Positions 3,015 to 26,200 of a DNA stretch of 60,257 bases are shown here, one piece after another (positions within the stretch are counted from its first letter, which is position 1; the number at the start of each line of letters is the position of its first letter). This stretch comes from Myxococcaceae bacterium (GTDB lineage Bacteria > Myxococcota > Myxococcia > Myxococcales > Myxococcaceae), in assembly GCA_022842905.1 (NCBI GenBank), contig JALHOS010000001.1:4907-65163 (forward strand), written 5' to 3'. The position numbers and the translations under genes were made by a program. The notes beneath the pieces were generated by a model. That model did not search any database, had not been told where the DNA came from, and worked only from the letters and a program-made list of their open reading frames with translations.

Positions 3015-3746
3015 CTACCAGTCTGCTCGGCTGCCGAACTCTCGGAGCGATGCCCTTCGCGCCTCGGCGTCGGGTAAGACCGACCCGAGTGCCGCCCAAA
3101 ATGCTTTCGTGTGGTCGGGGTGGCGAAGATGAAGCACCTCGTGCGCCACGACGTACTCAACCAGCCGCGAGGGCGCCTGCACGATGCGCCAGTTGAACCG
3201 CAGGACGCCACTGGGACTGCAACTTCCCCAGCGGAGTTCCTGCTCGCGCACGAGCACGGTTGGAGAGGGTAGGCCGATGCGCGTAGCCCAGTAGACGGCA
3301 CGCGCCGCCAACCGCTCCGCCGCCCGCCGCCTGTACCAGCCGATCAGCAGCGCCCGCACCCGAGTAGCCCGCGCCGCTTCGCTCAGGGGACTGTCGGTCT
3401 CCACGACAAGACGCCCCGCGTCGAGCTTCACGTTCTCGGACTTCCCGGCGAGCACACGCAAGCGGTACTGCCGCCCGAGGTAGAGGAAACTCTCGCCGCT
3501 CAGGAACTCCTTCACTGGCGACGGCCCTGAAACGGGGCGCACGAGCCGCAGCCGCCCAGCAATCCACCGCGCCTTGTTCTTCACCACTGAGTCGAGCCGC
3601 GTGACCGACGCACCCGCTGGGGCGGTCAGGATGACGCTCCCGGTGGGATGCACGGTGACCGCGACCGTCTTCCGTCGAGAGCTTCGTCGGATGCCGTAGT
3701 CGATGAGGGTCCGGCCGAACTGAACCTCGGAGTGCTCGACGATCAT
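3015..3746 (-). CDS. YgjP-type (M48-related) zinc metallopeptidase
   Basis: The 243-residue protein has the family layout: an N-terminal beta-rich part, then WGSCSPSGVLRFNWRIV, then the zinc site HEVLHLRHPDH (His192, Glu193 and His196, with His202 as likely third ligand). This matches YgjP/DUF45 metallopeptidases, which often sit at the end of type I restriction-modification operons. Substrate and role there are unknown. Two starts are possible. The ATG at 3746 overlaps the upstream stop codon as TGATG and is preferred over the one seven residues earlier. It is the last gene of the run that begins with hsdM, so it is probably co-transcribed with the restriction genes. Confidence 0.82.
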   Translation of the reverse strand: MIVEHSEVQFGRTLIDYGIRRSSRRKTVAVTVHPTGSVILTAPAGASVTRLDSVVKNKARWIAGRLRLVRPVSGPSPVKEFLSGESFLYLGRQYRLRVLAGKSENVKLDAGRLVVETDSPLSEAARATRVRALLIGWYRRRAAERLAARAVYWATRIGLPSPTVLVREQELRWGSCSPSGVLRFNWRIVQAPSRLVEYVVAHEVLHLRHPDHTKAFWAALGSVLPDAEARRASLREFGSRADW

Positions 3747-5071
3747 CAGTACGGATTCCGCGACCAAGGATGAACGGCTGGAAACGGGATGCCCGTGCTC
3801 TCATATAGGCGAGGTAGCTCAGCCTTCGGGTCTGGTCGTCGGTTGGCCGCGCCAGACCGAATGAACACGTCGTTTCCCGGAACCGTGGAGTACGGCTTGT
3901 CGCGGCCGGTCTCCACCGTGATGACGATGACCTGTCGCCCCAAGAGATGAACCGACTCGACCTTGATGAAAGGGACCGGCTTAACCCGCTCTCGAATCAC
4001 CTCGTCGAGGTGCTTCATGTAGTCGGTGAGCGCCTCAGGCCTGTCGCTCTGAAGAACGCGCTTGAGGGCCTTCTCCGCCTCGGGTTCGCGGTCCTTGCCC
4101 ACGCCCACGTAGATGCGACCTCCGTTCGTGTTCGCAAAGGCGACGGCCGACTCGATGACCTCTGACTCCTTCGCATCCTTTCGGTCAATGAACGGCTTGA
4201 ACTCGACGTTCTCGCTTTCCCAATCCAGCAAGTCTCTCCGTGCCTGCTCGGCGACGGTCAGGGCCAACGCCTCCGCGCTGACCTCGGCCCCCGGTGTCAC
4301 GCGGACGTGCCCCATCAGGTCCTTTGATGCGTGGACCAGATAGACATCCGCGAGACGCGCGTCCTTTGGCGTGTCCCAGATGAAGGCCGCAGGAACAGGG
4401 CGAATCGGGTCCAGCATCCGCTTCCCGCTCTCCGTGTCGAGCACTACCTGAAGCTCCAGTTCGGCATGCTCGGAGAGGGTGTGAATCGTCCCCGAGAGCT
4501 TGCTCCCGGCCCACTTCACGCTCTTCAGCGCGCCCCGCGTGTCGGACACGACAATCAGAAACTCTCGAAGATGAGCGGCATCCCCGCCTCCCTGTCGCTC
4601 CATGCCAAGGGTCCAGTTCTCGACCGCTCTGCTGACGGTCTCGAACGGCGGTAGCCCATGACCGACGGCAGGCCCCTGCGGAGCCTGCACTGCGTTGTCT
4701 GCGTGCCGCGCGGCAATCACCCATTCGGGCCAACCCGAAAGATTTTCAAACGCATCGGGCAGTCGTCGCTCCAGCCAGTGGCTCTCGTGGAAATTCCCGA
4801 AGTCGAACCTTCGCTTCGCATTCCTCCCGAACACCGTCGCGTCGAGCATGGAGATCGCAGTACCAAGTGGGAGCCACTGCTCCTCTAGCTGCACGCTGCC
4901 GTAGTCCACGGACCGACGCGGCTTACCCTTGGTGTCCATGAACAACGCGACACCCGTGAGAAAAGTCGAACCTGCGCGCGCCCACGTCACGAGCGCACCG
5001 AGCGGTTTGGCTCCGCGCCGGGCGAAGACGGTCTCCAGAGGCTCCCTCAGGCTCTTGATCTGCACCTTCAT
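3746..5071 (-). CDS. AlbA_2 (Schlafen-type) domain protein in restriction operon
   Basis: The 441-residue protein carries an AlbA_2/Schlafen-like domain at about residues 283-400: an ENVEFKPF-type opening and AFANTNGGRIYVGV (FANTNGG at 312-318), then HLLGRQVIVITVE and a closing VFIRSGAANRRP. Proteins with this domain bind nucleic acid, and some Schlafens cut RNA. The first 280 residues match nothing I recognise and may be the specificity part. The start overlaps the hsdR stop by 4 bases (ATGA), and the next gene overlaps its own stop, so translation is coupled. It is an accessory gene of the type I system; whether it is needed for restriction or is a separate defence effector cannot be told from sequence. 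Confidence 0.75.
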   Translation of the reverse strand: MKVQIKSLREPLETVFARRGAKPLGALVTWARAGSTFLTGVALFMDTKGKPRRSVDYGSVQLEEQWLPLGTAISMLDATVFGRNAKRRFDFGNFHESHWLERRLPDAFENLSGWPEWVIAARHADNAVQAPQGPAVGHGLPPFETVSRAVENWTLGMERQGGGDAAHLREFLIVVSDTRGALKSVKWAGSKLSGTIHTLSEHAELELQVVLDTESGKRMLDPIRPVPAAFIWDTPKDARLADVYLVHASKDLMGHVRVTPGAEVSAEALALTVAEQARRDLLDWESENVEFKPFIDRKDAKESEVIESAVAFANTNGGRIYVGVGKDREPEAEKALKRVLQSDRPEALTDYMKHLDEVIRERVKPVPFIKVESVHLLGRQVIVITVETGRDKPYSTVPGNDVFIRSGAANRRPDPKAELPRLYESTGIPFPAVHPWSRNPY

Positions 5072-8000
5072 CGTCCTTTCCTCGCTTTCGCGAGGTCAAT
5101 GATGGCGTCGGTGGCCTTCTCGATCTTCGCGTCGTCGTAGCGCGCGGCGCGCAGGTGCTTCTTGATGCGCACGCGCATCTCCCGCTGAACATCGGCCTTC
5201 TGGGTCCAGTCAACGATGCCGGTGTGCGGCGTCACCGCCTCGTCGAGCAGGGACGCCAACTCCTTCGTCGAGGTGTCGTACTCGATGGGCCGCTCGCCCA
5301 CGGACGGAAGGAGGACACCGTAGATGGCGTAGGCCATGTCGTTGAGCCCAGCGTCGCTCGCCGCGTTGGCTTCACCGCGAACCGCGCCCGCCAACTCCTT
5401 GAGCAACTCCAGTTGCTTCGCGGCGTCGATGCGCTTGAGCCGTCGGTCTTCGATGAGCTTCTCCAGCCGCTCGCGCAGGGAGGCGTAGAAGGCCGGGTTC
5501 TCCTCAAGCCGGACGTGAATCTCGTGCTTGATGGCGTGCTCCATCTCTGAAGCCCTCGCCTCCGGCGTCCGCAGCTTCTCGACTTTCTCATCGAAGTCCT
5601 TCGAGAAGATGGAGATCTCCTTCACCAGAAGTTCGATGCCGTCGGCGACGACGGCTTCCTCGATGAGCTTCCGCACCTTCTCGCCGCAGTCGGAGATGTC
5701 GAAGGTGTCGTCGCGGAACCGCGCCTTCGCCGCCGAGCGAATCTTCCCGAGCCACTTGAGGTCGGAGACGTAACGCAGCGCGCTCGGATCCGGCAGGAGC
5801 ATGTCGAGCGACTCGGAGAACTTCCTGAATGCATCGTCGAACTCGGCGCGCACGTCGTCGGGCTCCAGCACCGCGACGCAGTCGTTGAGGTCGTCCTTCT
5901 TCTTCACCTTGGCGAAGAACCCCATCGCGCGCGCATGACGGGTCTGGAGCCGGGGCAGTTCGTCGGCCTTCGGCGTCATCGCCCCCTTCACGTCGGAGGG
6001 TGAGAAGATGACGAGGGCGTCTTGCAGGGACTCGCTGATGCCCCAGTAGTCCACCACGAGGCCGAAGGTCTTCCGGTCGGCCTTGCGGTTCACGCGCGCG
6101 ATGGCCTGAAGCAGCGTGTGCTCGCGCAGCGGCGAGTCGAGGTACATGACCTGCTCAACGGGCGCGTCGAACCCGGTGATGAGCATGTCGCAGACAACGA
6201 GGATGCTGAGGGGGTCTTCCTCCTTCAGGAACCGCTCGATGAGCTGAACCTTCTCCTCCTTCGTGCGCCGGTATGGCTCGAACCGCTTGTCGTCGTTGTG
6301 CCCGACGGAGATGACGACGGCCGACTCCGGGCCGTTGAGCTTGTCGAGCATCTCCTTGTAGGTGATGGCCGCCTCGCGGCTGACCGCCACCACCTGCGCC
6401 TTGAAGGCGTTCGGCTGGATGAACTTCCGGTAGTGGTCGATTAGGTCGAGGCAGATGGTCTCGATGCGCTTCGGAGCTTCCGCCACCGCCTGCTCGGTCG
6501 CGTACTTCTTCTTGATGGCCTCGCGTTCTTCTTCTGAGCGGTCGGCGAACACGGCGTCGAAGACCTTGTCGAGGGTCTGCCCGACGATGCGGACCTGCGG
6601 AAGCCGCGACTCGTAGAAGATGGGCACGGTGGCGTCGTCGGCGACGGCCTGCTCGATGGTGTACGTGTCGATGTAGCTGCCGAAGATGCGCGGCGTGCTC
6701 CTGTCGTTCTTGTCGATGGGCGTGCCCGAGAAGCCCAAGAAGCAGGCGTTGGGGAGCGCCTTGCGCATGTTGGCGGCGAGGCTGGCGTACTGAGTGCGGT
6801 GGGCCTCATCGACGAGCACGAAGATGTTGTCAGCGGTGGAGAGTTCGGGGTGCTCGGCGCGCTCCTTGCGGTCGCCGGACCCGGTCTCGGCCACCTCTTG
6901 GAATTTCTGCACGGTCGTCATCACCGTGCGTCCGGTCGCGCCGGTCAGCAACTCACGAAGGCCCCTGACGCTCTTCGCCTTCTCGGGATTCGGGAACCCG
7001 CAGTTCGCGAACGTCTTGGAAATCTGCGTGTCGAGGTCGATGCGGTCGGTGACGATGACGATAGTGGGGTTGTCGAGCGAGCGCGCGCGCCGGAGCTTCA
7101 AGGCGAGCCACAGCATGGTCAGCGACTTGCCGCTGCCCTGCGTGTGCCAGATGATGCCGCCGCGAGCGGTGGGCTCCTTGGCTACGTCGATGCGCTCCAG
7201 CGCCTTGTTCACCGCGCGGAACTGCTGGTAGCGGCAAACCTTCCGCACGGTCTTCCCGCGCTCCGACTCGAACACGGTGAAGTTGCGCGTGATGTCGAGC
7301 AGGTTCTTCGGCTCAAGGAGGCCGTAGAGCAGAACGTCCTGCGCGGACGGCGGGTGGCCGAGTCTCTTCTCCAGCTCCTCCGCCGACACCGGGTACGGCT
7401 GCTTCCACTCGGCGTAGAACCGCTGGGGCGTCAGCACCGTCCCGTACTTCGCCGCCTGCCCGCAGCAGGTGATGACGAGCTGGACGGTCTCGAAGAGCTT
7501 GGGCGCGCCCATCCCTTTGAACTCGGAGGCGGCCTCTTGGTAGCGCAGCACCTGCCGCGCCGCCTCCTCGAACCACTTGTCGCCCAGCGTCGGCGACTTG
7601 CACTCGATGACGGCGAGCGGGATGCCGTTCACGAAGACGACGATGTCCGGGATGATGTTCTTCTTGCCGCCGAGCACTGCGAACTGGCGCGTGACGAGAA
7701 GGTCGTTTGCAGACGGGCTCTCGTAGTCGATGAAACGAACGGTCTGGCCCTTCTTTCCGGCCCCAACGTCCTGCTCGACGCTCCAGCCGTGCGTCAGCAT
7801 TGTGTGGAGCTTCTCGCTGGCGTCGAGCAGCCCGGAGGCGGCGATGTTGGTGACCGCGCGCAGGGCCTTCGACACGTTGTCGTCGGAGATCCACGGATTC
7901 AGCTTCTTCAGCGCCGCTGCTAGCCGCTTAGTCAGAACGGCATCGCGTGTGCTGTCGCGCTCGACATCGAGGCTATCGGCGGGAGCGATGGTGTAGCCAA

Positions 8001-8073
8001 GGCGCTCAAGTGCGGTAGCGGCGGGCCGCTCGGCTTGGTGTTCTTCGTTCCATTCGAGCGTGGCGGGGCTCAC
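5068..8073 (-). CDS. hsdR: Type I restriction enzyme, motor/endonuclease subunit HsdR
   Basis: The 1001-residue subunit has the expected order of domains. The nuclease site is PDIV...VIECKS (Asp143, Glu157, Lys159). The superfamily 2 translocase follows with Walker A HTQGSGKS (310-317), DEAH at 422-425, and downstream helicase motifs including SGTPI and QAIARVNRKA. In the HsdR2M2S complex it translocates DNA by ATP hydrolysis and cuts far from the recognition site. The GTG start overlaps the hsdS stop by 4 bases. Length is normal for the family and no frameshift is seen, so the enzyme looks functional. It is the third gene of the minus-strand operon hsdM-hsdS-hsdR-AlbA_2-YgjP. Confidence 0.95.
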   Translation of the reverse strand: MSPATLEWNEEHQAERPAATALERLGYTIAPADSLDVERDSTRDAVLTKRLAAALKKLNPWISDDNVSKALRAVTNIAASGLLDASEKLHTMLTHGWSVEQDVGAGKKGQTVRFIDYESPSANDLLVTRQFAVLGGKKNIIPDIVVFVNGIPLAVIECKSPTLGDKWFEEAARQVLRYQEAASEFKGMGAPKLFETVQLVITCCGQAAKYGTVLTPQRFYAEWKQPYPVSAEELEKRLGHPPSAQDVLLYGLLEPKNLLDITRNFTVFESERGKTVRKVCRYQQFRAVNKALERIDVAKEPTARGGIIWHTQGSGKSLTMLWLALKLRRARSLDNPTIVIVTDRIDLDTQISKTFANCGFPNPEKAKSVRGLRELLTGATGRTVMTTVQKFQEVAETGSGDRKERAEHPELSTADNIFVLVDEAHRTQYASLAANMRKALPNACFLGFSGTPIDKNDRSTPRIFGSYIDTYTIEQAVADDATVPIFYESRLPQVRIVGQTLDKVFDAVFADRSEEEREAIKKKYATEQAVAEAPKRIETICLDLIDHYRKFIQPNAFKAQVVAVSREAAITYKEMLDKLNGPESAVVISVGHNDDKRFEPYRRTKEEKVQLIERFLKEEDPLSILVVCDMLITGFDAPVEQVMYLDSPLREHTLLQAIARVNRKADRKTFGLVVDYWGISESLQDALVIFSPSDVKGAMTPKADELPRLQTRHARAMGFFAKVKKKDDLNDCVAVLEPDDVRAEFDDAFRKFSESLDMLLPDPSALRYVSDLKWLGKIRSAAKARFRDDTFDISDCGEKVRKLIEEAVVADGIELLVKEISIFSKDFDEKVEKLRTPEARASEMEHAIKHEIHVRLEENPAFYASLRERLEKLIEDRRLKRIDAAKQLELLKELAGAVRGEANAASDAGLNDMAYAIYGVLLPSVGERPIEYDTSTKELASLLDEAVTPHTGIVDWTQKADVQREMRVRIKKHLRAARYDDAKIEKATDAIIDLAKARKGR

Positions 8074-9317
8074 GCAGCAGCCCCAGTCGTGTTGGGGGCA
8101 CCAGACTGACCCGCGAGCAGCGCATCCAAGAGAGCGCGCTTCACGGCCTTCAGTTCGTCAAGCGTGGCCTCCTCAGCAAAGAGCCGGAAATCCATATCCT
8201 TCAGACACGCGGCTATTGCTCGCTGCTCCGGCATGGGCGGCACGGGAATCTTCAGGCTCTTGAAGTAGGGGAGCCCAATGGTCTTGATGGTGCTGCCAAC
8301 GGCGATTCTCTCGAACTCGGGCTTTCTTGCCTGAAGCCAGTAGTAGAGGAAGTGGTTGTCGAGGAGAGGTCCACACTTCCACGCCATGAAATGCTGGCTC
8401 ACTGCCATCACGTCGGTTGTGATCGCACTCTTCCCAACTCCCGCGTCTCGCGACAGCACGACGGTTCCGACAGGGTGCTCAACGGCCGACGAGTTTGCGA
8501 TCCCCAGCGGGGTTGTCTTGGCGGCCGTGTCAGAAATGTAGAGGCGGTCGAGGTGGGAACAGTCCTTGAGCGATAACCACTTGATTGATCCCCCCCAGTA
8601 CTCCGGGTGCTTCTTGTCGGGGGTGTGGCCGCTGCCGCGCTCGGCGACACTGCCGAGCAATTCCAAGCGCCACATAGTGGGCATTCGCCCGCTTTCCGTG
8701 TCCTGAAACTCTGTATGCCGCCCCGGAAGACCTTGGGTCAGCAACTGAGTCATCACCGCCCAACGCACCTCCTTCGTTTGAGCGATGACCGATTCGGTCT
8801 TTGAGACCGCGTCATCAACAGCTCCGAGCACTGCGGCGATTCGCCGTTGTTCATTCAGCGGCGGCACCGCAACCTCAAGGCCACTGAACGACTCCCAATC
8901 GGTCTTCTTTCGTTTTCCGTGTTGGTTCCCGCCCTGAGTTGCTCGCGTGAAGGCAGCCTGCATTCGGGGACTCTTCACGAGGAACCAGAAGTACGACGGG
9001 TCGATCCCTTCCCTCAGTCGAAACGTGATGTACGCGGGGCTCACAAGTCCAGCAGGCACCCGCCGCTGCCAACCAATCGCTCCGTAATAGAGCGACATCG
9101 GGTCGTAAACGAAGTCACCGTGCCTACAGATTTTGTACCTCGTAACGTCGGTCGCGATGCGCTTGTTGAACTTCTCCGATTGAAGAACAACGCCAACATC
9201 CTTCGTAACCGACAGTGGGGGAAGATCCGCGCCAGCAGCGTTGATCTCCTTGAACTGAGCGCAGAGTTGGCCCAACGAGGCTGTGGACCAGCCCTGCTCT
9301 GGGCTACGCATACCCAA
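8070..9317 (-). CDS. hsdS: Type I restriction-modification specificity subunit HsdS
   Basis: The 415-residue protein has the two-part layout of HsdS. Each half is a variable target-recognition domain followed by a conserved helical spacer. The first spacer begins PPLNEQRRIAAVLG and the second PPMPEQRAIAACLKD. The second recognition domain opens with a typical GSGHTPDKKHPEYWGG stretch. HsdS sets the bipartite DNA sequence recognised by both methylase and restriction complexes. It overlaps the end of hsdM by 14 bases and the start of hsdR by 4. Both halves are complete, so a two-part recognition sequence is expected; it cannot be read from the protein alone. Confidence 0.93.
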   Translation of the reverse strand: MGMRSPEQGWSTASLGQLCAQFKEINAAGADLPPLSVTKDVGVVLQSEKFNKRIATDVTRYKICRHGDFVYDPMSLYYGAIGWQRRVPAGLVSPAYITFRLREGIDPSYFWFLVKSPRMQAAFTRATQGGNQHGKRKKTDWESFSGLEVAVPPLNEQRRIAAVLGAVDDAVSKTESVIAQTKEVRWAVMTQLLTQGLPGRHTEFQDTESGRMPTMWRLELLGSVAERGSGHTPDKKHPEYWGGSIKWLSLKDCSHLDRLYISDTAAKTTPLGIANSSAVEHPVGTVVLSRDAGVGKSAITTDVMAVSQHFMAWKCGPLLDNHFLYYWLQARKPEFERIAVGSTIKTIGLPYFKSLKIPVPPMPEQRAIAACLKDMDFRLFAEEATLDELKAVKRALLDALLAGQSGAPNTTGAAA

Positions 9318-11148
9318 GCTCCTTCAAGTGGGCGTTCATCCGTGCTTCTGCTGCGGCGCGTTCGGCCTCCAGCACGCGTAACCGCCGAACTGCTGCGGCG
9401 ACATCGACGGCCGCTTCGGACTCGGTCGCATCGACAAACCGACTGATGTTGATGTTGAAGTCGTTCTTTTCAATCTCCTCAATGGAGACCACGCGCGCGT
9501 ACCCTTCCGAGTCGGCGAATGCCCGGAACGTGGCGGCGATCCTGTTCACGTCCTCGTCGCGCAGGAAGTTCTGGGCGGTGCCGTCCATGAACTCACGGGA
9601 GGCGTCGATAAAGAGCACCTGCCTTTTGCGAAGCTTCGCGCGGTTGAGCACCAGCACGGCGGCCGGGATGCCAGTTCCATAGAAAAGGTTCGATGGCAGC
9701 CCGATGACGGCCTCCACGAGGTCATCCGTAACGAGTCCCTTGCGAATGTCCCGTTCGCTCCCGCCGCGAAAGAGGACGCCGTGGGGCATGACTACAGCTA
9801 GCTGGCCGGTGGCATTCAACGTCGCGACCATGTGCTGCACGAACGCAAGGTCGCCTTTCGACTTTGGAGGCACGCCATAGCGGAACCGACCGAATCCGTC
9901 GTGTTCGGCAACCTCGACGCCCCACTCGTCGAGCGAGAACGGAGGGTTTGCTATCACTCGGTCATAGAGGATGAGCCCGCCGTCCTTCACGAGCTTCGGG
10001 TCGCGGATGGTGTCGCCCTTCTCGATGCGGGCGTCGGTGAGGCCGTGGAGCAGCAGGTTCATCTTCGCGATGGCCCACGTCCCGAGGTTCTTCTCCTGAC
10101 CGTGGTACGTGAGGTTCTTCGCGTTGCCGCCGTGCTTCCGCACGTAATGCGCGCACTCAACCAACATGCCGCCTGAGCCGCAGGTCGGGTCGCAGATGCG
10201 CATCCCTTCATTGGGAGCGAGCAACTCGACGATGAGCTGTACGACCTTGCGGGGCGTGTAGAACTCGCCGCCCTTTTTTCCGGCGTCATCGGCGAACTTC
10301 TCGATGAGGTACTCGTAGGCCCTCCCGAGCATGTCCGGCTCGGACAGCGACGAGTTCCGCAGGTTCACCTTCGAGAAGTGCAGCACCAACTTGGAGAGCA
10401 CGGTGTCGCGGTTCTTCGCGTCGCCCAGCCTCCGCTCGTCGTTGTAGTCAATCTGCGCGAGCAGCCCCTCCAGCGACTCGTTCTTCTCCTCCAGCGCCGC
10501 GCACGCCTTGTTCAGCGCCTCGCCGATGCCGGTGGAGACCTTCTGAAGCTCTGACCACCGCGCGCGCGTCGGCACGAAGAACTGGTGCTGGTCCTCGTCG
10601 CTCCACGCAACCTTCTCCGACTCGCCCGCCGCGACGAGCTTCTCGGCCTCCTCCTCGAAGACGTCGGAGAGCCGCTTCAGGAACAGCAGCCCGAAAATGA
10701 AGCCCTTGTAGTCCGACGAGTCGATGCTGCCTCGAAGGATGTCAGCGGCGCTCCAGAGGTAGCGTTCGAGCTGGTCCACGGTGAGCTTGCCGTTTGCGGT
10801 GAGTTCCCCCGTGGGCGGCGCGACATCGTTCTTCGCCGTCACCTTGGCGACGGGAGCCGCCACGTCACCGCCGAGAATGCGAGCGATGAGGACGTCCTTC
10901 TCCTTGCCGGAGCGGTCGAGTTCGAGCGCTTCGCAGATGCCCTGAAGCTCCTCCCGCCTGAGCAGACCCAACACCTCGGAGAAATCCACCGAGCGCGAGC
11001 GAACGAGGGCGTCAACGTGCTGTTCGAGCACTCGACGGTCCCCGACTTCGAGGTCGAAGTGCTCGGTTAGGGAGGAGAGGCGGTCACGAGCGAGAGTCGC
11101 AAGGGCCTGACGGCGGATCTTCGACGGGAGGATGTCCGGCTTCGACAT
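9304..11148 (-). CDS. hsdM: Type I DNA adenine methyltransferase subunit HsdM
   Basis: The 614-residue subunit contains the N6-adenine methylase motifs: DPTCGSGGML (from residue 320) for S-adenosylmethionine binding and the catalytic NPPF at 401-404. An HsdM N-terminal helical domain (about 121-260) precedes them. It is longer than the usual roughly 500 residues because of an N-terminal extension of about 110 residues. Within this, 61-92 (LRREELQGICEALEL...) looks like a SAP-type DNA-binding helix pair. With HsdS it forms the methylase that protects host DNA. It is the first gene of the operon, starting about 240 bases from the divergent gene pair at 12.4 kb, with a small same-strand gene in between. 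Confidence 0.95.
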   Translation of the reverse strand: MSKPDILPSKIRRQALATLARDRLSSLTEHFDLEVGDRRVLEQHVDALVRSRSVDFSEVLGLLRREELQGICEALELDRSGKEKDVLIARILGGDVAAPVAKVTAKNDVAPPTGELTANGKLTVDQLERYLWSAADILRGSIDSSDYKGFIFGLLFLKRLSDVFEEEAEKLVAAGESEKVAWSDEDQHQFFVPTRARWSELQKVSTGIGEALNKACAALEEKNESLEGLLAQIDYNDERRLGDAKNRDTVLSKLVLHFSKVNLRNSSLSEPDMLGRAYEYLIEKFADDAGKKGGEFYTPRKVVQLIVELLAPNEGMRICDPTCGSGGMLVECAHYVRKHGGNAKNLTYHGQEKNLGTWAIAKMNLLLHGLTDARIEKGDTIRDPKLVKDGGLILYDRVIANPPFSLDEWGVEVAEHDGFGRFRYGVPPKSKGDLAFVQHMVATLNATGQLAVVMPHGVLFRGGSERDIRKGLVTDDLVEAVIGLPSNLFYGTGIPAAVLVLNRAKLRKRQVLFIDASREFMDGTAQNFLRDEDVNRIAATFRAFADSEGYARVVSIEEIEKNDFNINISRFVDATESEAAVDVAAAVRRLRVLEAERAAAEARMNAHLKELGYA

Positions 11149-16367: not shown

Positions 16368-16987
16368 GTCGTCCTCCGAGCGGGCGCGACGGGGAGAAGT
16401 CCGGCGCGAGCGAGTGCCCTTCTGATGGAGGCGGCGGAGACGCCGACCTTCTTCGCCCCGCTGCGCCAACCGAACTGCTCGACGAGCCGCCGCGCTTCAT
16501 CGGGTGAGACGGGCAGTGGTCGGGAGGGGCGGCCGACCTTCGCCCCCGCCTGCCTCACGCTGGCAATGACTGTGCGGCCCTGCCGTGAAGCCCGCCGCTG
16601 CTGGTCGGCGGACAGGTACACCGAGATGGCGACGACCGTGTGGGGGTCCACCGTGGCGGTCCAACAGTCGGCAAGGCTCACGAGCCGAATCCCAGCGGTC
16701 ATCAGCGCCCCAGCGATGCCGAGCGCGGTCGTCGCGCTGGGGTGGAGAGCCGCGAGCGAGGCGACCACCACCGTCGAGGCGCCCGCGTTGAGCACCTCGG
16801 AGACCAGCGCCTCGGCTGCCCCCGACCTGCGCCCGCGCCCTCGGACAACGAGGCACTGACCGCCGCCGTGGGTGGCAGCGGCATCGACAAGACGTCGGTC
16901 ACCGCCTCGACGACGCCCCGTCACCACCAAGGCAACCTTGGGGACCGCTACCCCCTGCGCCAACTGGATTCTGGGAATTGCGGCCAT
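16364..16987 (-). CDS. Catalytically inactive serine-recombinase-like protein
   Basis: The 207-residue protein follows the resolvase fold: VALVVTGRRRGG at the position of the catalytic strand, VVVASLAALHPSATTALGIA where active enzymes have the SRLxR motif, IRLVSLADCWTATVDPHTVV, an SADQQRRASRQGR helix, KVGRPSRPL, and a C-terminal helix-turn-helix (GAKKVGVSAASIRRALARAG). The catalytic serine and its neighbouring arginine are missing: the usual YxRxS reads VVTG. It therefore cannot cut DNA by the known mechanism but may still bind it through the HTH. It is the first gene of the five-gene operon that ends with an intact serine recombinase (14583-15221), so a regulatory or architectural partner is a reasonable guess. 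Confidence 0.7.
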   Translation of the reverse strand: MAAIPRIQLAQGVAVPKVALVVTGRRRGGDRRLVDAAATHGGGQCLVVRGRGRRSGAAEALVSEVLNAGASTVVVASLAALHPSATTALGIAGALMTAGIRLVSLADCWTATVDPHTVVAISVYLSADQQRRASRQGRTVIASVRQAGAKVGRPSRPLPVSPDEARRLVEQFGWRSGAKKVGVSAASIRRALARAGLLPVAPARRTT

Positions 16988-17080
16988 GTGATAGCATGAT
17001 AGTACATCGCATTTAGCAGGTGGGATAGCGATGGTCAGTCATAGTTGAATCAATAGGATACGAGCCGGAGGACGATGTTC
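16988..17080. promoter_or_regulatory. AT-rich divergent control region
   Basis: This gap separates the recombinase operon (minus strand) from the small gene at 17081 (plus strand). It is clearly richer in A and T than its surroundings and contains the close direct repeat TGATAGCATGATAGTAC and a GTTGAATCAATAGGATAC stretch ending 8 bases before the GGAGG ribosome-binding site of the right-hand gene. Promoters for both directions must lie here. Because a serine recombinase is encoded alongside, a recombination (res-like) site in the same gap is possible; I cannot define one. Confidence 0.4.
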
Positions 17081-17329
17081 ATGCCCAAGCGAACAGGCGT
17101 AAGGGACCGGCCCGACCCACAGCTCTTCTCGTTGAGGCTTCCACGGCGACTCTGGGCTGAGCTGGGTGTGCTCGCGCGCCTCCGAGGGGTGCCGCTCAAC
17201 GAACTCCTCGTCGGCGTCCTACAGGCCTACTGGGACACGCAGCCCGAGAAGGCGGCCGTCGCCCCGCTAGTCGAGGCGTCGGGCACGCTGAGCCCTCGCG
17301 CACGAGACAAGGCCGGAAAACCTGAGTAG
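17081..17329 (+). CDS. Small ribbon-helix-helix-like protein
   Basis: The 82-residue protein begins MPKRTGVRDRPDPQLFSLRL. It continues PRRLWAELGVLARLRGVPLNELLVGVLQAYWD, that is, one strand followed by two helices, as in Arc/MetJ-type ribbon-helix-helix regulators. Such proteins bind operators as dimers. GGAGG at 17067-17071 sits 9 bases before the ATG at 17081 and only 3 before the alternative at 17075, so the later start is chosen. It is divergent from the five-gene recombinase operon and could be its repressor. No toxin-like partner follows it. Confidence 0.6.
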   Translation: MPKRTGVRDRPDPQLFSLRLPRRLWAELGVLARLRGVPLNELLVGVLQAYWDTQPEKAAVAPLVEASGTLSPRARDKAGKPE

Positions 17330-17354
17330 CCCGTCGGAGTTTTCCGGGGGGGCG

Positions 17355-17789
17355 TCAGAGGTGCTGCACGTCGAGGTCGCCCCACTTCTGCTTGAGGTAC
17401 TCGACTACGAGACGGCGGTGGCAGTGATGCGGCTTGTCCTCGCTGCACAAGAGGCAGGCGCCTTCGAGTGATGCGCGAGGAATCGTCTGCTCGATGCGCC
17501 GCTCAGCCATGAGCGCGAGGAAGCGCTTCTCGTAGTCGCCCCAGTCACCGCCGTCCTTCTTGTAGCCGTCCAGCATTGGCTGCGTCGGCGCCAGCACCGG
17601 CTCGTGGGCGTACTCGATGCCGCCGATGGCTTTGAGGAAGTAGCGGAGGTCTTCCTTCTTGGCGAACCCGGCAAGCTGAGAGACGTTGTTCAACCTGACG
17701 TCGAGCACCTTCTTCACTCCCGCCTTCTGGAGCCTGCCGAAGAAGCCCTCCGCAGTGGTCTTGGTGAAGCCGATGGTGAAGACCTTCAC
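17355..17789 (-). CDS. DUF488 family protein (second copy)
   Basis: The 144-residue protein shows the DUF488 pattern: MKVFTIGFTKTTAEGFFGRL at the front, VLDVRLNN, a central YFLKAIGGIEY, and the closing ACLLCSEDKPHHCHRRLV with the conserved Cys and CH pair. Biochemical function is not established for the family. The GTG start overlaps the stop of the upstream DUF488 gene (GTGA), so the two are coupled. With the dual-OB-like gene at 18409-19110 it makes a three-gene set that occurs in genomic islands; a role in sensing or handling nucleic acid has been suggested for such sets, which I recall but cannot verify here. Confidence 0.85.
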   Translation of the reverse strand: MKVFTIGFTKTTAEGFFGRLQKAGVKKVLDVRLNNVSQLAGFAKKEDLRYFLKAIGGIEYAHEPVLAPTQPMLDGYKKDGGDWGDYEKRFLALMAERRIEQTIPRASLEGACLLCSEDKPHHCHRRLVVEYLKQKWGDLDVQHL

Positions 17790-18409
17790 GGTGCGAACCG
17801 CTCCGCCCCTGAGTCACCCACCGTGGCGGGCTTTTCGACGTAGGCGATCTCGTTCCCGCGCTTCGTATACGCCTCGTCCACCAGCTCCTGCCGGGGCTTG
17901 AAGAAGTCGTCACCTCGGACACCGACCTCCTTCAGCAGACGGTCGAGCGCATCCTCGTGCGGTTCGAGACGGCCATCCTCGCGGATGTGAGCGGCTCGAA
18001 GGCCCCGCGCAACGAGGTGGCGGACGACGAGAATCGTTCGGTGGCAGGTCAACGGGTCCTTCTCCGCGCACAGGAGCGCGATCCGGTAACGAGCGGCCCC
18101 CTGCTCGACCCGAGTAAGCCCTTCCTGAAAGAGGGCGCTCTTTGCGAGGCGGTCGTACTGGACCTTTCCATCGACGTAGCAGCTCCGGTCTTCGCTGCGA
18201 GCACCAAGCTCGCGGCCGAGGAAGACGTAGGAGATCCCCGCGCCCTTAAGGGCGTCCTTGAGGGGCTCGCGGTTGAACTGGGGGTTCATGCGCGAGTACG
18301 GCTGCGAGCGCACGTCGGCGACCGCCGTGATCTCATTGCGACGGAGAAGCTCGATGAGCTTGGCCGACGAGTGGGTGGAGTGCCCGATCGTGAAGACGAC
18401 CGCGCCCAT
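17786..18409 (-). CDS. DUF488 family protein (first copy)
   Basis: This is a longer DUF488 member of 207 residues: VVFTIGHSTHSSAKLIELL, VADVRSQPYSRMNPQFNRE, GISYVFLGRELG and the conserved IALLCAEKDPLTCHRTILV with its paired cysteines. A C-terminal extension of about 70 residues (ENGRLEPHE-like region, then KPRQELVDEAYTKRG) goes beyond the core fold. Start choice: the ATG at 18409 overlaps the upstream stop as TGATG; a GTG at 18412 is also possible. Two DUF488 proteins of different length in tandem suggest a heterodimer. Function unknown. Confidence 0.85.
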   Translation of the reverse strand: MGAVVFTIGHSTHSSAKLIELLRRNEITAVADVRSQPYSRMNPQFNREPLKDALKGAGISYVFLGRELGARSEDRSCYVDGKVQYDRLAKSALFQEGLTRVEQGAARYRIALLCAEKDPLTCHRTILVVRHLVARGLRAAHIREDGRLEPHEDALDRLLKEVGVRGDDFFKPRQELVDEAYTKRGNEIAYVEKPATVGDSGAERFAP

Positions 18410-19110
18410 CACGTCCCCCCAGCACGCTCAGGCGTGATGACGGCGGCGGCCAACTTGTAGACATACCCGTTGAAGCCCTCTCCGAGGCTCACGCAGAGCA
18501 GCGCGCGAGGGGTCGGGTAGCTGCCATCAGCAAGGGCCAGATACTGGCGCTCGATGGGCGGGTCGGTGACGCCGAAACGGTAGCTGACGCCGTTCAGACT
18601 GAACTCCGCCCGAAGCCTGCGCCGACTCGGGTACATCCCGTTGTCCTCGATCCGAACGACCAGAACGAGGTTCTCGGGTCGAACGAGGTAGAGCGAGCGC
18701 GAGATACCGCCAAGCTGGCCCTCGGGCACTTGGTCATTCAGCCCATGCCGCGTCGAGAAGCCGTTCACCCACAGTGGACCCTGCGGGCTGTCAACCGCAG
18801 GTTGCAGCTCCTCCCAAGAGGCCTGCCCGGTCTTCACCCAGTAGTACCCCGCGTCCAGCTCGTGATTCTCCTGTTGGTGGTCGTGGGGCACCGGTTGCTT
18901 CATAGTGATCGAGATGATGTCGAGCACCTTCGGGTCGGTGCCGTCCTCGTAGCGCCGCTCTTCCTCGGACACCTCTCGTGTCGGCCGCTCACTCACTGGC
19001 CGGACCCAGTCGCCGTACCCACCCGCCCGATGCTCTCTTCCGGCGATGCAACGCCCCGAAGGCGGCTTGCGCGAGTTGGCGAGGCAGACGATGTCTTTCG
19101 TGTAGCTCAC
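18409..19110 (-). CDS. Dual-OB-like domain protein of the DUF488 cluster
   Basis: The 233-residue product begins (V)SYTKDIVCLANSRKP and continues PPSGRCIAGREH, GDWVRPVSERPTREVSEEER, DIISITMKQPVPHDHQQEN and LWVNGFSTRHGLNDQVPE. This layout matches proteins I know as dual OB-fold domain proteins that accompany DUF488 genes. A GTG start at 19110 is chosen because AGGAG lies 7 bases before it; the frame also offers an ATG nine codons upstream. First gene of the set of three, coupled to the DUF488 genes by overlapping stop and start. Probably nucleic-acid binding by fold; no activity is shown. Confidence 0.65.
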   Translation of the reverse strand: MSYTKDIVCLANSRKPPSGRCIAGREHRAGGYGDWVRPVSERPTREVSEEERRYEDGTDPKVLDIISITMKQPVPHDHQQENHELDAGYYWVKTGQASWEELQPAVDSPQGPLWVNGFSTRHGLNDQVPEGQLGGISRSLYLVRPENLVLVVRIEDNGMYPSRRRLRAEFSLNGVSYRFGVTDPPIERQYLALADGSYPTPRALLCVSLGEGFNGYVYKLAAAVITPERAGGT

Positions 19111-19167
19111 GAGGTGGCTCCTACCAGCAGCGTACACGAGACCGCCACCGAGAGCAGGTAGCCTCAG

Positions 19168-20555: not shown

Positions 20556-20625
20556 CAGCAAGGTCGCGCGAGCAACGCCGAGAAGCACAAGGCAGGAGCA
20601 CTTGGGTGCTCCCGAACGGAGAGCC

Positions 20626-22518
20626 ATGTCCTACGAACGCAGAGCTGGAGCTGGACCCGATGAACGTGTGCCAGACATTCTCGCGGTGGCGCGAGCGGCC
20701 GGGTTGGCGCCGACACATGACTACGGTGATGAGTGGCTGGTGACGTGTCCGTTGCCGGGTCACGACGAAGACGAACACCCGAGCTGCTCCCTCAACGCCG
20801 CGACGCAGGAGTTCAACTGCTTCGTGTGCGAGCGTGGTGGCGGCTCGCCGGAGTTCGCACGCATCCTGAAGCAGGAGCATGTCCCCGTCGTCCCGGTTGC
20901 AGGCTCGCCTGCGGCGAAGAAGCCGTCGAAGGCCAGTCAGTGCAACGCGGCTCGCATCTGGGAACTGCTCTCGACGCAGGACCTTCGGGGGCGGAGGGCG
21001 CTCAACAGGAGGTGGCTTCGCACTGCGCCCGAGGTGGATCTGGCAAAGTTCCTGACCGAGGACTTCGCTGGCATCAGCACCGCGACAGACAACTACCTGC
21101 GCTGGTTGGCTCGGGTGGGATTCCGCGTCGCAGTACCGATGCAGGACGTGAGCGGGAAGACGGTGGCGCTCGCGCTCAGGAACGTCGATCGAGATGCTCG
21201 CCCCAAGGTGCGGTTCTTGGGCACCCCGGCGAAGGCGTTCTTCGGGATGCCGCGCAACGTCGTTCGTCATCGGCGGGCTCTCTTGGTCGAGGGCCTCACC
21301 GACTACCTCACGGCGAGTCTCGTGTTCATCGACGACACGGAGACGACGGTCATCGGCTTCAACTCGACGGGCGGCTTCGACGAGGAAGCACTGGCCAAGG
21401 TCTTCCGCGACTTCGAGGGAGAGCTTTTTCTCTTCCCGCACAACGATGGGGCCGGAATGCGCCTGATGGCGAAGGCCGCGAACGCGCTCACCGACATGAA
21501 GCGGCGTTGGCGCTGGGTGTCCCCGCTGGTTGAGACGAAGGGTGGCGACCTCTCAGACCTGCTCGCGCAAGAGAAGGGCGACTACGACGAGTACTACGAC
21601 GAGTACTACGTCAAGGTGGCGGAGGCGATGGCGGCGGCCTTGCCGCAGTTGACGCCTGAGGTCGCTTCCTTGATGGCGACCAGAGCCCCTGAACGTGACC
21701 GCACCAGCCCACCTGCGCCTGAGTGGGTGGGGGAGCCCCCCGCCTTCTGCCCGCCGCCCACGACGGCGCTGGTCTCCCGTCAGCTCCTTGGTGAGGTCGC
21801 AGCGATTCTTGATGCCTCCACCGCTCGACGGCGAGCTGCGCTCGCTTCGCGACCAGCAAAGGCTGCGACCCCTGCGCCCAGCGCTGCCGATGCCAGCACG
21901 CAGGACAGGACGAAGGGCGAGCGACCTCGGCCTCGTGTGGCAGCGGATGCCCTTCTCGGTCTCCAGCTCGACACCGCCCTCAGGTTCATGGACCGAGGCA
22001 AAGGCGCGTTCGCAGGGCCGGAGTACCTGACGAAGAAGCTGAAGGTGTCTCCGACTCGCCTGCACGCAGCGGCCAAGTGGCTCGCGGCGCGAGGTGTCAG
22101 CAGGACAACTCCCACCTCAAGCGACGGCCGGAGGCACTGGCAGGTCGCGAAGCCCATCACGGATAAGGAGGCGACGTGCGACTACGTGCCCGTGCCGTCG
22201 GCGGCCGTCTTCGAGTTGAAGCCGCTCGACTTCTTCGTGCTCGCAACCCTCCACGACCTGCACGAGCTTGCCTGCGGCGGCGACGCCAAGGACCACCGGA
22301 GAGAGCTGCTGCCCCGCACGGGGTACATGAACATGCCCATGGCCACCATCTTGTCGGTGATGCCCATGGGGCCGAAGCGGGCAACGGCGTGCCTCCTTCG
22401 ACTGGAGGAGAAGCGGTACTTCAGCGCGAAGGTTCGCAAGCTCTCGCCCCCCATCAGCACCAACCCGCTGGGAGGGCTCCGGCGAAAGCCGTCAGCGACG
22501 CCCGAGGAGTCGCCATGA
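20626..22518 (+). CDS. CHC2 zinc-finger/Toprim DNA primase of mobile element
   Basis: The 630-residue protein starts with a DnaG-type zinc finger (Cys41, His46, Cys65, Cys68). It continues with a Toprim domain containing LLVEGLTDYLTA (Glu222, Asp226) and FLFPHNDGAGMR (Asp274). The usual first Asp of the Toprim DxD pair reads His272 here. The last third (about 430-630) is a helical DNA-binding or adaptor region with a winged-helix look (KVSPTRLHAAAKWLAARGVS). It would synthesise primers for the element's own replication. GGAGAG precedes the ATG at 20626. A TTG upstream at 20602 is less likely. The iteron-like array lies downstream. Confidence 0.82.
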   Translation: MSYERRAGAGPDERVPDILAVARAAGLAPTHDYGDEWLVTCPLPGHDEDEHPSCSLNAATQEFNCFVCERGGGSPEFARILKQEHVPVVPVAGSPAAKKPSKASQCNAARIWELLSTQDLRGRRALNRRWLRTAPEVDLAKFLTEDFAGISTATDNYLRWLARVGFRVAVPMQDVSGKTVALALRNVDRDARPKVRFLGTPAKAFFGMPRNVVRHRRALLVEGLTDYLTASLVFIDDTETTVIGFNSTGGFDEEALAKVFRDFEGELFLFPHNDGAGMRLMAKAANALTDMKRRWRWVSPLVETKGGDLSDLLAQEKGDYDEYYDEYYVKVAEAMAAALPQLTPEVASLMATRAPERDRTSPPAPEWVGEPPAFCPPPTTALVSRQLLGEVAAILDASTARRRAALASRPAKAATPAPSAADASTQDRTKGERPRPRVAADALLGLQLDTALRFMDRGKGAFAGPEYLTKKLKVSPTRLHAAAKWLAARGVSRTTPTSSDGRRHWQVAKPITDKEATCDYVPVPSAAVFELKPLDFFVLATLHDLHELACGGDAKDHRRELLPRTGYMNMPMATILSVMPMGPKRATACLLRLEEKRYFSAKVRKLSPPISTNPLGGLRRKPSATPEESP

Positions 22519-23201
22519 ACGCGCTCTTGTTCCCCGCCAGCCATCATCTCCCAGCCCCCCGAATCTTAGGGAAGGTTCACCTTCGGATTCTTCTTAGGGT
22601 TCTCCTTCCACTGATTCTCCTTAAGGACTTCCGAGGAGGCCCGATGCCTGCGGCATCCCTCGCGAAAGTGGCTCCTCGAAGGATGAGTCACGTCAACGCG
22701 TCTGCCAGCGCGCAAAACGCGTTGGGCATCGCGTCCAAACGCATTGGGGCATTCGCTCGAACACGTTGGCGCCAGAACCCCCACGCGTTCGGAATCAGAA
22801 ACGACGCGTTTTCGGCCAGCGACGCCCAACGCGTTCATGGCCCACCCGAATTTCGCCGACCATTTCCTCGACCAGTTGCGCAACCTCCCGTGCCGCCGAG
22901 GGAATCCGGGCACTCAAATTACAATTCGGAGGTCACCTGCTACCAGATGAGCATGGGCAGCGTGATTGACAGAACCCCGACGCAGAACCGGACGGCAGGA
23001 TGGTCCGGGCATTGGGTGCCCAGAGGGAAACGCGGCCTCAGCCGCGTGACCGACGGCGGCCCACCGTAGCGCCCGAACGCTGACGAGCAGCACCCGGATG
23101 TGATCGGCCCCCTGAACTAGCGAGGGCCACGGAGGACGGATCTTGCCCTCGGGCGCGGCCGCCAGCGCGCGAGGGACCACACGGCGGCATGGAGTTGAAC
23201 G
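22519..23201. other. Gene-free segment downstream of primase
   Basis: I see no convincing gene in these roughly 680 bases; the open frame that starts at 22515 (ATGA overlap with the primase stop) reads through repeats and has poor protein character. The left part has CTTAGGG at 22565 and 22593, the palindrome CCTTAAGG at 22619-22626 and the hairpin GATGCC-TGC-GGCATC at 22643-22657. The centre carries the octamer array listed separately. The right part (22840-23200) shows nothing I can name. A replication origin or partition site would fit the layout. Confidence 0.55.
22695..22835. repeat. Iteron-like array of seven AACGCGTT-type octamers
   Basis: Copies start at 22695 (AACGCGTC), 22716 (AACGCGTT), 22738 (AACGCATT), 22760 (AACACGTT), 22782 (CACGCGTT), 22803 (GACGCGTT) and 22828 (AACGCGTT). 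The steps are 21, 22, 22, 22, 21 and 25 bases, about two turns of B-DNA. The octamer AACGCGTT is a perfect palindrome. Between copies the sequence is not conserved, so this is a phased binding-site array rather than a simple tandem repeat. It lies just downstream of the primase gene, as iterons do at plasmid and satellite origins. The binding protein is unknown. Confidence 0.65.
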
Positions 23202-24086
23202 ATGAGAACCGGAGACGCGAAGTACGTGCAGTTGAAGTGCAGCTCTTGTGGTCGCGGCGGGAAGCTCGCCCCGGCAGAGGACGTGAACCCCTTCGCCAAG
23301 GTTGGGGACGAGGTGGCGTGGGAGACCGCATGCCCATCGTGTGAAGTGAAGGGAGCACGATTCGAGATCGAGGCCTTTCACGACTCCGACCCGAACGCCA
23401 AGGCGATTGCCCTCTATGCGTCCGGCCCGACCCGGAGGCGCATCGACGAGAAGTTGGCCGCGCTCCGTGATGTGGCTGCTGCGGAGGGTGTCGTCGTGCG
23501 CGAGTACAGAGATGTCGCCTCTGCCAGTTCCGCGCGGAGCGGCCTCTCAGAACTGATCGCCGCCGCCGAGGAAGCCGAGTTCGAGACCGTGCTGGTGATG
23601 AGCTACGGCGAACTCGGGAAGGACCTCGTCTCGATTCGTTCCGTCGTGAACGACCTCGGTCGCAACGGCGTGAATGTCACCTCGCCGGACGGCTTCTTGG
23701 TGAGCAGGAACGAGGACTGCCCGGTGCTCTCACCCGGACTCAAGGCGATCGACCCTGAGGACGCGGAGGCGTTGGCCGAGACGTGCGGCGCAATCGCGGC
23801 GGCACGCATTCGAGCCGAGCACCCAGACGAGTACGAAACGATGGAGGAGCAGGTGCTCGACGAACTGGGTGACGAACTCGCGATGTTCTTCCCTGCCGGG
23901 GCCTACGCCTCGGATGACAGCTCGAACTTGCCCTGTCCTGAGGGCCACTTCCTCGACGGTGTCGCGATGCTGACCCCCGGCCAGTTCATTGAGGATCTCG
24001 AACCGCACTTCTGGCGGGGCTTCCGCGCCGAGGTGATCGCAGCCGCGAGTCTCGGCAAACCCCGCGTCGCTGGGCGCGGCTCCTGA
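23202..24086 (+). CDS. Zinc-ribbon protein with inactive serine-recombinase-like domain
   Basis: In this 294-residue protein, residues 10-50 form a zinc ribbon (Cys13, Cys16, Cys44, Cys47). From about 66 to 165 the sequence tracks the resolvase catalytic fold: AIALYASGPTRRR, VVVREYRDVASASSARSGL, FETVLVMSYGELGKDLVS, and GVNVTSPDG. The catalytic Arg and Ser of the YARVS motif are replaced (YASGP), so strand cleavage is not expected. The last 120 residues are acidic and helical and match nothing I know. It lies between the origin-like region and the excisionase-like gene, so a role in replication or recombination of the element is plausible. Gene certain, function inferred from fold. Confidence 0.7.
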   Translation: MRTGDAKYVQLKCSSCGRGGKLAPAEDVNPFAKVGDEVAWETACPSCEVKGARFEIEAFHDSDPNAKAIALYASGPTRRRIDEKLAALRDVAAAEGVVVREYRDVASASSARSGLSELIAAAEEAEFETVLVMSYGELGKDLVSIRSVVNDLGRNGVNVTSPDGFLVSRNEDCPVLSPGLKAIDPEDAEALAETCGAIAAARIRAEHPDEYETMEEQVLDELGDELAMFFPAGAYASDDSSNLPCPEGHFLDGVAMLTPGQFIEDLEPHFWRGFRAEVIAAASLGKPRVAGRGS

Positions 24087-24265: not shown

Positions 24266-24370
24266 ACGGCAGCAGATACCCGGATGGAGGACGACCCGGT
24301 TCAAGTAGCCAGCGCAACGCGGCGCTGTCGCAACGCTCCGGGGGACGCCACTTCGCGAGGAGAACCCAAC

Positions 24371-24739
24371 ATGAAAGCAGACAATGGGTCTTCCCCGACG
24401 GGGAAGACAGATGGGCAGAGCCATGTCGAGCGGGAAGCTGACTCCGCTCGTCGCGACAATCCTCAACGCCGGGAGACGGTCAGGAAGCCACTCGGCGCGC
24501 AGGCGGACGAGGTTCCGGGAAAGTCGGCACCTGAAGGCGGCACTGAGCTTCCGAATCTTCTCTGCACGCCGAAGGAAGCCGCAGCGTTCCTGCGTTTGAC
24601 GCTGAAGGCGCTCTACGGGCGACGGGCTCGCGGCCAGATCAAGTCGGTGACGATCGGGCGAAGCATCAGGTTCCGTCGGACTGACCTGCTAGCGTTCGTT
24701 GCCGAAGGGCGTGCGCCGTCGCCGAGGAGATCTCGATGA
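24371..24739 (+). CDS. Excisionase-like helix-turn-helix protein
   Basis: The 122-residue protein has a disordered, charged N-terminal half and a C-terminal HTH_17/excisionase-type domain: LLCTPKEAAAFLRLTLKALY, then GRRARGQIKSVTIGRSIRF, then RRTDLLAFVAEG. This is the MerR-like winged helix of Xis and AlpA-type factors that steer integrase towards excision. A GAGGAGA ribosome-binding site ends 9 bases before the ATG at 24371. Its stop overlaps the integrase start (ATGA), the classic xis-int layout. The element can therefore probably excise. Confidence 0.8.
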   Translation: MKADNGSSPTGKTDGQSHVEREADSARRDNPQRRETVRKPLGAQADEVPGKSAPEGGTELPNLLCTPKEAAAFLRLTLKALYGRRARGQIKSVTIGRSIRFRRTDLLAFVAEGRAPSPRRSR

Positions 24740-25926
24740 CGGTCTACATCAGGCCTTACGTGGTGGCCGTGAACCACGTCAAAGACTGCGCCAAACGCAG
24801 GTGCAGTCCGGATTGCAAACGCGTCACTGAAGGCTGGGAGGTGGACGTCGTGTTGACCCTGCCCGACGGCGAGGAACTCCGGGAGCGAAGGAAGAGCCCG
24901 GTTACCTCGAAGGCGGGCTCCAAGTTCTGGGCGGAGCAGCGGGAGGGTGAGCTGCTGCGAAACGGGAAGAAGCGCGCCGATGCACTGATTCCGACGCTGA
25001 AGGAGTTCGTGCCCCGGTACATCGAGGAGTTCTGCGTCGCCAACAAGCAGAAACCCAGCACCATCGAGAGCAAGCAGGCGACTTTCGATGGGCGATTGCT
25101 GCCGCTGCTTGGTGGGCTCCGTCTCGACGAGATCGGCGAGGAACAGGTTCAACGCGTCAAGGCCGACATGAAGGACTGCAAGCCGAAGACGATCAACAAC
25201 GTGCTCTGCATTCTCTCCAAGGCCCTGAAGGTGGCGATCAAGTGGAAGAAGAGCACTGGTCTCACCGCCATGCCCGTTCAGATTGAACCGCTGAAAGGAG
25301 CTGGGGCCGAGGTCCGGTTCTACGAGTTCGAGGAGTACGCGCGGCTCGTGGAGGCGGCGGAGAAGCTCGATCTCCGCTCGCTGGTGTTGGTCCTCCTTGG
25401 TGGCGATGCCGGTCTCCGCACCGGGGAGATCATCGCCTTGGAGTGGTCCGACATCGACTTCCGGCGACGAATCATCATCGTCGGACGGTCGGAGTGGAAC
25501 GGCAACGTGAGCATCCCGAAGAGCAACAAGTCTCGGAAGGTGCCGATGACCGAGAAGCTCACGGCCGCCCTCAAGGCCCTCAAGCACCTCCGTGGGCCTC
25601 GGGTGCTCTACCGGGACGACGGCACTTCGACGTCGAAGCAGACCCTAACGACGTGGATGAAAGCCGCGCAGAGACGGGCTGGGCTGAAGGAGACCGGGAA
25701 CAAGCACATCCTCCGGCACACCTTCTGTTCGCACCTCGCCATGAGGGGAGCCACCGTGCTCGCCATCAAGGAGCTGGCCGGGCACAGCAGCCTCAGCACG
25801 ACGATGAGGTACATGCACCTCAGCCCGGACCACAAGGAGCAGGCCATCCGGCTCCTCGACCAAGCTCGGAATGGTTCTCAGCTTGGAGACATTCTGGAGA
25901 CGGACCGACCGGCCACCCAGCACTAG
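24736..25926 (+). CDS. int: Tyrosine recombinase (integrase)
   Basis: The 396-residue protein has an N-terminal arm-binding part with four cysteines (CAKRRCSPDCKR), a SAM-like core-binding domain (about 85-185), and the catalytic domain. The catalytic residues are visible: Arg in GDAGLRTGEI, HILRHTFCSHLA (His and Arg), LAGHSSLSTTMRYMHLS (His and the Tyr nucleophile). It catalyses site-specific insertion and excision. The gene ends about 90 bases from the 3' end of tRNA-Glu(CTC), which is the likely attachment site. Complete, with no frameshift. Confidence 0.94.
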   Translation: MTVYIRPYVVAVNHVKDCAKRRCSPDCKRVTEGWEVDVVLTLPDGEELRERRKSPVTSKAGSKFWAEQREGELLRNGKKRADALIPTLKEFVPRYIEEFCVANKQKPSTIESKQATFDGRLLPLLGGLRLDEIGEEQVQRVKADMKDCKPKTINNVLCILSKALKVAIKWKKSTGLTAMPVQIEPLKGAGAEVRFYEFEEYARLVEAAEKLDLRSLVLVLLGGDAGLRTGEIIALEWSDIDFRRRIIIVGRSEWNGNVSIPKSNKSRKVPMTEKLTAALKALKHLRGPRVLYRDDGTSTSKQTLTTWMKAAQRRAGLKETGNKHILRHTFCSHLAMRGATVLAIKELAGHSSLSTTMRYMHLSPDHKEQAIRLLDQARNGSQLGDILETDRPATQH

Positions 25927-25991: not shown

Positions 25992-26018
25992 CGTACCTCG
26001 GGACGAGCGAGGATTTTT

Positions 26019-26091
26019 TGACCCTGCCGGGATTCGAACCCGGGTTTATGCCGTGAGAGGGCACCGTCCTAGGCCACTAGACGACAGGGCC
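26019..26091 (-). tRNA. tRNA-Glu (anticodon CTC), insertion site of the element
   Basis: The minus-strand cloverleaf is complete: acceptor stem GGCCCTG with CAGGGTC (one G-U pair), D arm GTCTAGTGGCC, anticodon arm GTGCC-CTCTCAC-GGCAT with anticodon CTC, and T arm CCCGGGTTCGAATCCCGG. The discriminator base is A; CCA is not encoded. The 3' end faces the integrase gene, as expected when an element inserts into a tRNA 3' end and restores it. The partner direct repeat should lie at the left end of the element, outside this window. Confidence 0.93.
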
Positions 26092-26200
26092 AAAACGCGC
26101 GCGGTGAGTACGCCACACGCTCACTGAAATCAACTTCCACCAGCACCTTCAGCAACTCGACTTCACTCCCCGGCCCCAGCACAGCGAACCGGCTCACCTG

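Follow-up and report, generated by a model that had tools for sequence, protein, structure and literature searches.

Initiators of the P4 alpha type, in which primase and helicase are joined, work with iterons, and the origins of IncQ plasmids such as RSF1010 carry iterons of 20–22 bp in a replicon that has its own primase. The gamma origin of R6K has an AT-rich neighbour. R6K possesses seven 22-bp iterons, and iterons are bound by Rep proteins of the winged-helix type (PMC4980987). RepA_N initiators, among them the one of the PLE satellite, are known to have semi-palindromic iterons arranged as direct repeats (PMC7145576).

In the window, by which we mean the whole analysed stretch of 60,257 nucleotides, seven palindromic octamers with the consensus AACGCGTT follow a primase-like gene of an integrative element. 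As at the R6K gamma origin, seven repeats at about 22 bp lie beside a low-stability stretch. However, R6K has direct repeats that are bound by Rep monomers, whereas only a palindromic 8-bp core is kept in the window. Furthermore, the window has no gene of the pi/RepE type, a search for DnaA boxes around the array was negative, and the place where an initiator gene might be is taken by a primase gene. The RepA_N systems, exemplified by the PLE satellite of Vibrio cholerae, resemble the window in that semi-palindromic iterons lie in noncoding DNA of an integrated element (PMC7145576), but the window has neither a RepA_N gene nor a poly-A tract in the repeat, and the sequence is different. Judged by anatomy, the R6K origin and the RepA_N origins appear to be the nearest. 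As with P4, an integrative element has its primase gene next to a repeat array, and two related loci (L310 and L313) encode a primase-helicase type protein directly upstream of the excisionase and integrase genes (xis-int); the protein of the window, in contrast, has no helicase, and the repeats appear unrelated to the P4 iteron. The 20–22 bp iterons and own primase of RSF1010 are also comparable to the window, but no RepA or RepC homologue was found in it and its primase is DnaG-like. In Pfam scans, no predicted protein of the element matched a Rep initiator of a known family, and the array may therefore be said to work like, but not to be a member of, a known iteron group. The locus looks like a familiar origin plan with a new sequence.

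The octamer array and the intergenic region

The octamers start at positions 22695, 22716, 22738, 22760, 22782, 22803 and 22828, so that the array covers 22695–22835 (no strand assigned), and the steps from site to site are 21, 22, 22, 22, 21 and 25. An earlier note on this DNA had listed seven such octamers, and all seven were recovered at its positions. Their agreement with the consensus is better than it had indicated; four sites with at most one change and three with at most two had been given, whereas we found exact copies of AACGCGTT at 22716 and 22828 and a single deviating base in each of the other five.

To correct for the choice of AACGCGTT, chains of all 256 palindromic octamers were scanned for, allowing up to one mismatch and a pitch of 19–26. 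The longest chain elsewhere in the 60-kb window has three sites, as against seven in the array, and in 60 second-order Markov windows the longest chain was two to three sites, with a maximum of three. Shuffled sequence, the comparison proposed in the earlier note, thus does not give equal numbers. Chains of four or more were absent from 870,562 bases of loci that had been fetched for reasons other than arrays, and no pair of exact AACGCGTT at a pitch of 19–26 was found in the 7.85 Mb genome.

The best-kept eight bases are perfectly dyad-symmetric, as expected of a site for a dimer, and the consensus is held in 51 of the 56 core cells, whereas the spacer columns mostly hold three to four out of seven. 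This may be taken as an argument for selection on the core, softened by the fact that the core was chosen after the fact. The array is real, and it stands out by its seven sites, in which the core is kept while the spacers have loosened. Its palindromic core hides the orientation of the repeats. Several repeats of about 17–22 bp in one noncoding region are characteristic of iterons, and here seven sites occur in such a region at a pitch of 21–25. The proposed two-turn phasing holds between neighbours, which are about two helical turns apart, but not cumulatively: with 10.5 bp per turn, the seventh site has drifted to a position of 12.67 turns.

It had also been claimed that the DNA between the copies is not conserved, and that the array reflects phased protein binding and not a tandem duplication. 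Neighbouring spacers are, however, more alike than shuffled spacers (p = 0.00025, gapped similarity) and more alike than equally laid-out pieces of local intergenic DNA (p = 0.0012); compared with random places in the window they are also more alike, although less clearly so (p = 0.027). Permuting the order of the real spacers gave no significant result (0.16). A lax TRF search revealed tandem units of 21–24 bp in the array. Since the spacers retain a weak similarity, the first claim does not wholly hold and the second was too strong. The spacer similarity and the TRF units make it probable that the array arose by tandem duplication, with the core kept constant while the spacers drifted.

The array is located in an intergenic region of 683 bp (22519–23201, no strand assigned). 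A repeat within a coding sequence was rejected, because the steps of the array are not consistently multiples of three and no ORF contained in 22519–23201 scores as coding. As previously noted, the array directly follows the primase-like gene, whose stop is at 22518; the first site lies 176 bp further on, and the array ends 366 bp ahead of the next gene start. Nearest-neighbour energies revealed a low-stability stretch at 22559–22638 (no strand assigned), a candidate DNA unwinding element. This 80-mer is the second least stable in the window; the least stable is found at 16985–17064, in a 1.1 kb gap between predicted genes. The stretch ends 56 bp upstream of the array, in the position of the adjacent AT-rich, low-stability element of iteron origins, and the gap 22519–23201 ranks second of 17 intergenic gaps for low stability. 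As unstable stretches are common in intergenic DNA, the meeting of stretch and array is modest evidence. Repeats inside the stretch, including an internal 14-mer, were not significant.

No DnaA box with up to two mismatches was found in 22300–23300; such boxes occur in many iteron origins but are not required in all. The GC skew does not single out the array, with its minimum at 20313 and a local dip near 22873. No sigma-70-like promoter was detected in 22400–23400 by a scan that would miss other promoter types.

The integrative element and its relatives

The element spans approximately 30.9 kb and comprises a tRNA-Glu, a tyrosine integrase and an excisionase. A protein with a partial serine-resolvase N-terminal domain, assigned by domain match, is encoded at 23202–24086 (+ strand) and gave only weak matches in 96 family genomes. 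It is followed by an excisionase-like HTH_17 protein (24284–24739, + strand), matches of which lie just upstream of the integrase in many relatives, by the tyrosine integrase (24736–25926, + strand) and by the tRNA-Glu that serves as integration target (26018–26092, − strand). The right-hand 24-bp repeat (26019–26042) consists of the last 24 bp of the tRNA and recurs at contig C1:79–102, the left end of the element, outside the window; a terminator-like hairpin, read by eye, is found on the outer side of this left repeat. Because C1:1–4896 is joined to the window through ten N, the length of approximately 30.9 kb rests on this join. Runs of ten N at contig C1:4897–4906 and 65164–65173 bound the window, so that the left end of the element is connected to it across an assembly gap.

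Defence-like cargo is present at 1467–11148, namely type I restriction-modification (hsdM, hsdS, hsdR) and Schlafen AlbA_2, YgjP-like and HEPN_LA2681 TPR proteins. Positions 17075–19137 hold a small ribbon-helix-helix gene, two adjacent DUF488 genes and a DuOB gene, and relatives of all four occur together in one related locus (L297). The element has no detectable replicative helicase, ParA or ParB.

The primase-like gene (20602–22518, + strand) encodes 638 aa with a CHC2 zinc ribbon, a TOPRIM domain and C-terminal stretches resembling a helix-turn-helix, the latter read by eye. The Pfam matches to CHC2 and TOPRIM are weak, both being below the curated cut-offs, and the protein also matches phage and DnaG primase families. 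It contains no Walker A motif or helicase domain, and therefore not the combination of primase and helicase that defines the P4 alpha type. The C-terminal region has no Pfam match, and BLAST gave no alignment between it and the C-terminus of the L313 protein. Single-sequence structure predictions of the primase and of its C-terminus were unusable (mean pLDDT 35 and 34, respectively). No close relatives of the primase were found in the viral contigs, genome contigs, phages and plasmids searched, and up to 98 relatives contained weak local matches only. So far, a single element with this primase and array is known.

About twenty relatives of the integrase, at 48–57% identity, were found in 145 class genomes. 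One of them, 52% identical, is a second integrase of the family encoded elsewhere in the genome of the window (G000:C27:22573–23625, L294). We examined 40 relative loci, which extended as far as about 15 kb upstream from the integrase when the contig was long enough. None of them holds a palindromic array like that of the window. The longest palindromic chain, five GCGCGCGC-like sites in L307, lies in GC-rich repetitive DNA, as do the direct-repeat chains of five or more, which occur only in L295 and L296. According to the earlier note, an absence of the array from relatives would count against its proposal. The integrase relatives indeed have no array, but they do not have this primase either, apart from a 43-aa zinc-finger match in L313, so that this comparison is uninformative on whether array and primase travel together.

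The relatives do carry other replication genes near the integrase. Immediately upstream of xis-int, L313 encodes a protein with CHC2, TOPRIM and AAA_25 domains, whose C-terminus weakly matches MarR/GntR; it unites primase and helicase as in the P4 alpha type, and a protein 56% identical to it occupies the same position in L310. The least stable 80-mer within 17 kb of L313 lies about 190 bp before the primase gene. A Prim-Pol protein is encoded near the integrase in L304, with homologues in L299, L305 and L312. A ParB_N protein is encoded near the integrase in L290 (3008–3970, − strand), with a 27% identical match in L315.

Possible functions of the array

We see a roughly even chance that the array is an iteron-like replication origin bound by a dimer, the candidate binder being the C-terminal region of the primase or another protein of the element. 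The probabilities of this and all other readings are judgements, not computed values. The earlier note had suggested an origin or a partition array. Its first half finds indirect support in the anatomy of the array (seven sites, the primase gene and the adjacent low-stability stretch) and in the fact that several integrase relatives carry replication genes close to the integrase. The second half is not supported, as none of the predicted proteins of the element matched ParA or ParB in Pfam.

If the array is an origin, the element would first excise from the tRNA-Glu. A dimeric protein encoded by the element would then bind the seven dyad sites, where neighbouring dimers, about two helical turns apart, would be able to touch, and the bound protein might bend or wrap the DNA so that 22559–22638 opens. 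The primase of the element could subsequently prime synthesis, with a helicase borrowed from the host or a helper, since the element seems to have no replicative helicase of its own. In this model, that a protein binds the sites, that the stretch melts, that replication starts here and which protein is the binder are all inferred. The sites might be bound by the C-terminal part of the primase or by the resolvase-like protein (23202–24086). The small ribbon-helix-helix-like protein (17075–17329, + strand) was considered but is less favoured. L297 encodes a protein 53% identical to it, together with two DUF488 genes and no array, and excisionase-like and ribbon-helix-helix proteins in general occur in relatives without the array, which makes both weaker candidates. 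By this elimination through co-occurrence, which has one positive case and is not proof, the stronger candidates would be the primase and the resolvase-like protein, both of which have so far been seen in this element only. A more specific version, in which a helicase-less primase recognises its own palindromic iterons via its C-terminal region and a single protein both marks and primes the origin, strikes us as decidedly doubtful; such a primase would be related to the primase-helicase proteins with a winged-helix-like C-terminus in related elements. Several observations speak against an origin, namely that no canonical Rep initiator and no replicative helicase were found in the element, that no DnaA box is nearby, that the GC skew is indecisive and that no DNA-binding domain of the primase is confirmed.

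Repressors and activators typically bind rows of dyad sites, and a dimeric regulator of the element might instead use the array as an operator for the primase operon or for the three genes downstream (resolvase-like, excisionase and integrase), and so control excision, not replication. The genes run rightwards from 23202, and the element encodes small DNA-binding proteins (17075–17329 and 24284–24739) that could act in this way. However, both of these candidate regulators have matches in relatives that carry no array. Seven is a large number of sites for a single operator, the next gene start is 366 bp away, and 22400–23400 has no promoter of the sigma-70 kind, although other kinds would be missed. 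We therefore consider an operator rather unlikely.

That the array is a functionless, diverged minisatellite of 21–24 bp, whose units were made by slippage and whose octamer survived by chance, is in our judgement unlikely. Such a history would fit the greater likeness of neighbouring spacers than of local noncoding DNA. Furthermore, public genome contigs contain at least 119 stretches with three ACGCGTT at a pitch of 20–25, and a backward control pattern was matched about as often as the real ACGCGTT pattern when 147 class genomes were searched, so that, from these counts, a three-site ACGCGTT array is not special in itself. Neutral decay should nevertheless strike core and spacer alike, whereas 51 of the 56 core cells are held and the spacers mostly keep three to four of seven, with the reservation that the core was picked post hoc; moreover, the part that was kept is a perfect palindrome. 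Most of the public arrays among the matches listed repeat at a fixed pitch with hardly any change across the whole unit, in contrast to the array in the window, as judged by reading the printed units and spacings. A centromere-like partition site of the excised element is very improbable. Arrays of short sites are typical of centromeres, and the ParB_N protein near the integrase of L290, with its match in L315, would fit this reading. A ParABS or ParMRC system would include ParA or ParM with a DNA-binding partner, which was not seen in the element; none of its predicted proteins has a Pfam match to the ParA or ParB families, and tblastn gave no convincing ParB match in the contig.

Should the origin reading be true, about 300 bp would be defined as the candidate origin of an integrative, defence-carrying element in an apparent Myxococcota genome, and the locus would offer an entry point to the replication of these islands after excision. 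Throughout the class, relatives in this integrase family have replication genes of different kinds close to the integrase.

Other arrays with the octamer

Among the matches listed, pitches of 21 and 24 are frequent in the public ACGCGTT arrays, and a 22-bp pitch recurs in arrays of Bacteroidales and Saccharothrix. A 20-bp tandem (L013) and a 24-bp array inside an ORF (L014) were taken as unrelated, with no related primase beside them where looked at. The same applies to the Bacteroidales, Saccharothrix and Polyangium arrays. The array of L245, beside a large RNA-polymerase-like gene, was also taken as unrelated. One Bacteroidaceae MAG (JAGAAS; L104, L106, L116, L124, L144 and others) carries three-site CAACGCGTTG arrays with a 22-bp pitch in many places, and the Saccharothrix loci L114, L122, L130, L157, L174 and L197 contain 22-bp repeats close to GAACGTAGGACACACGCGTTCT.
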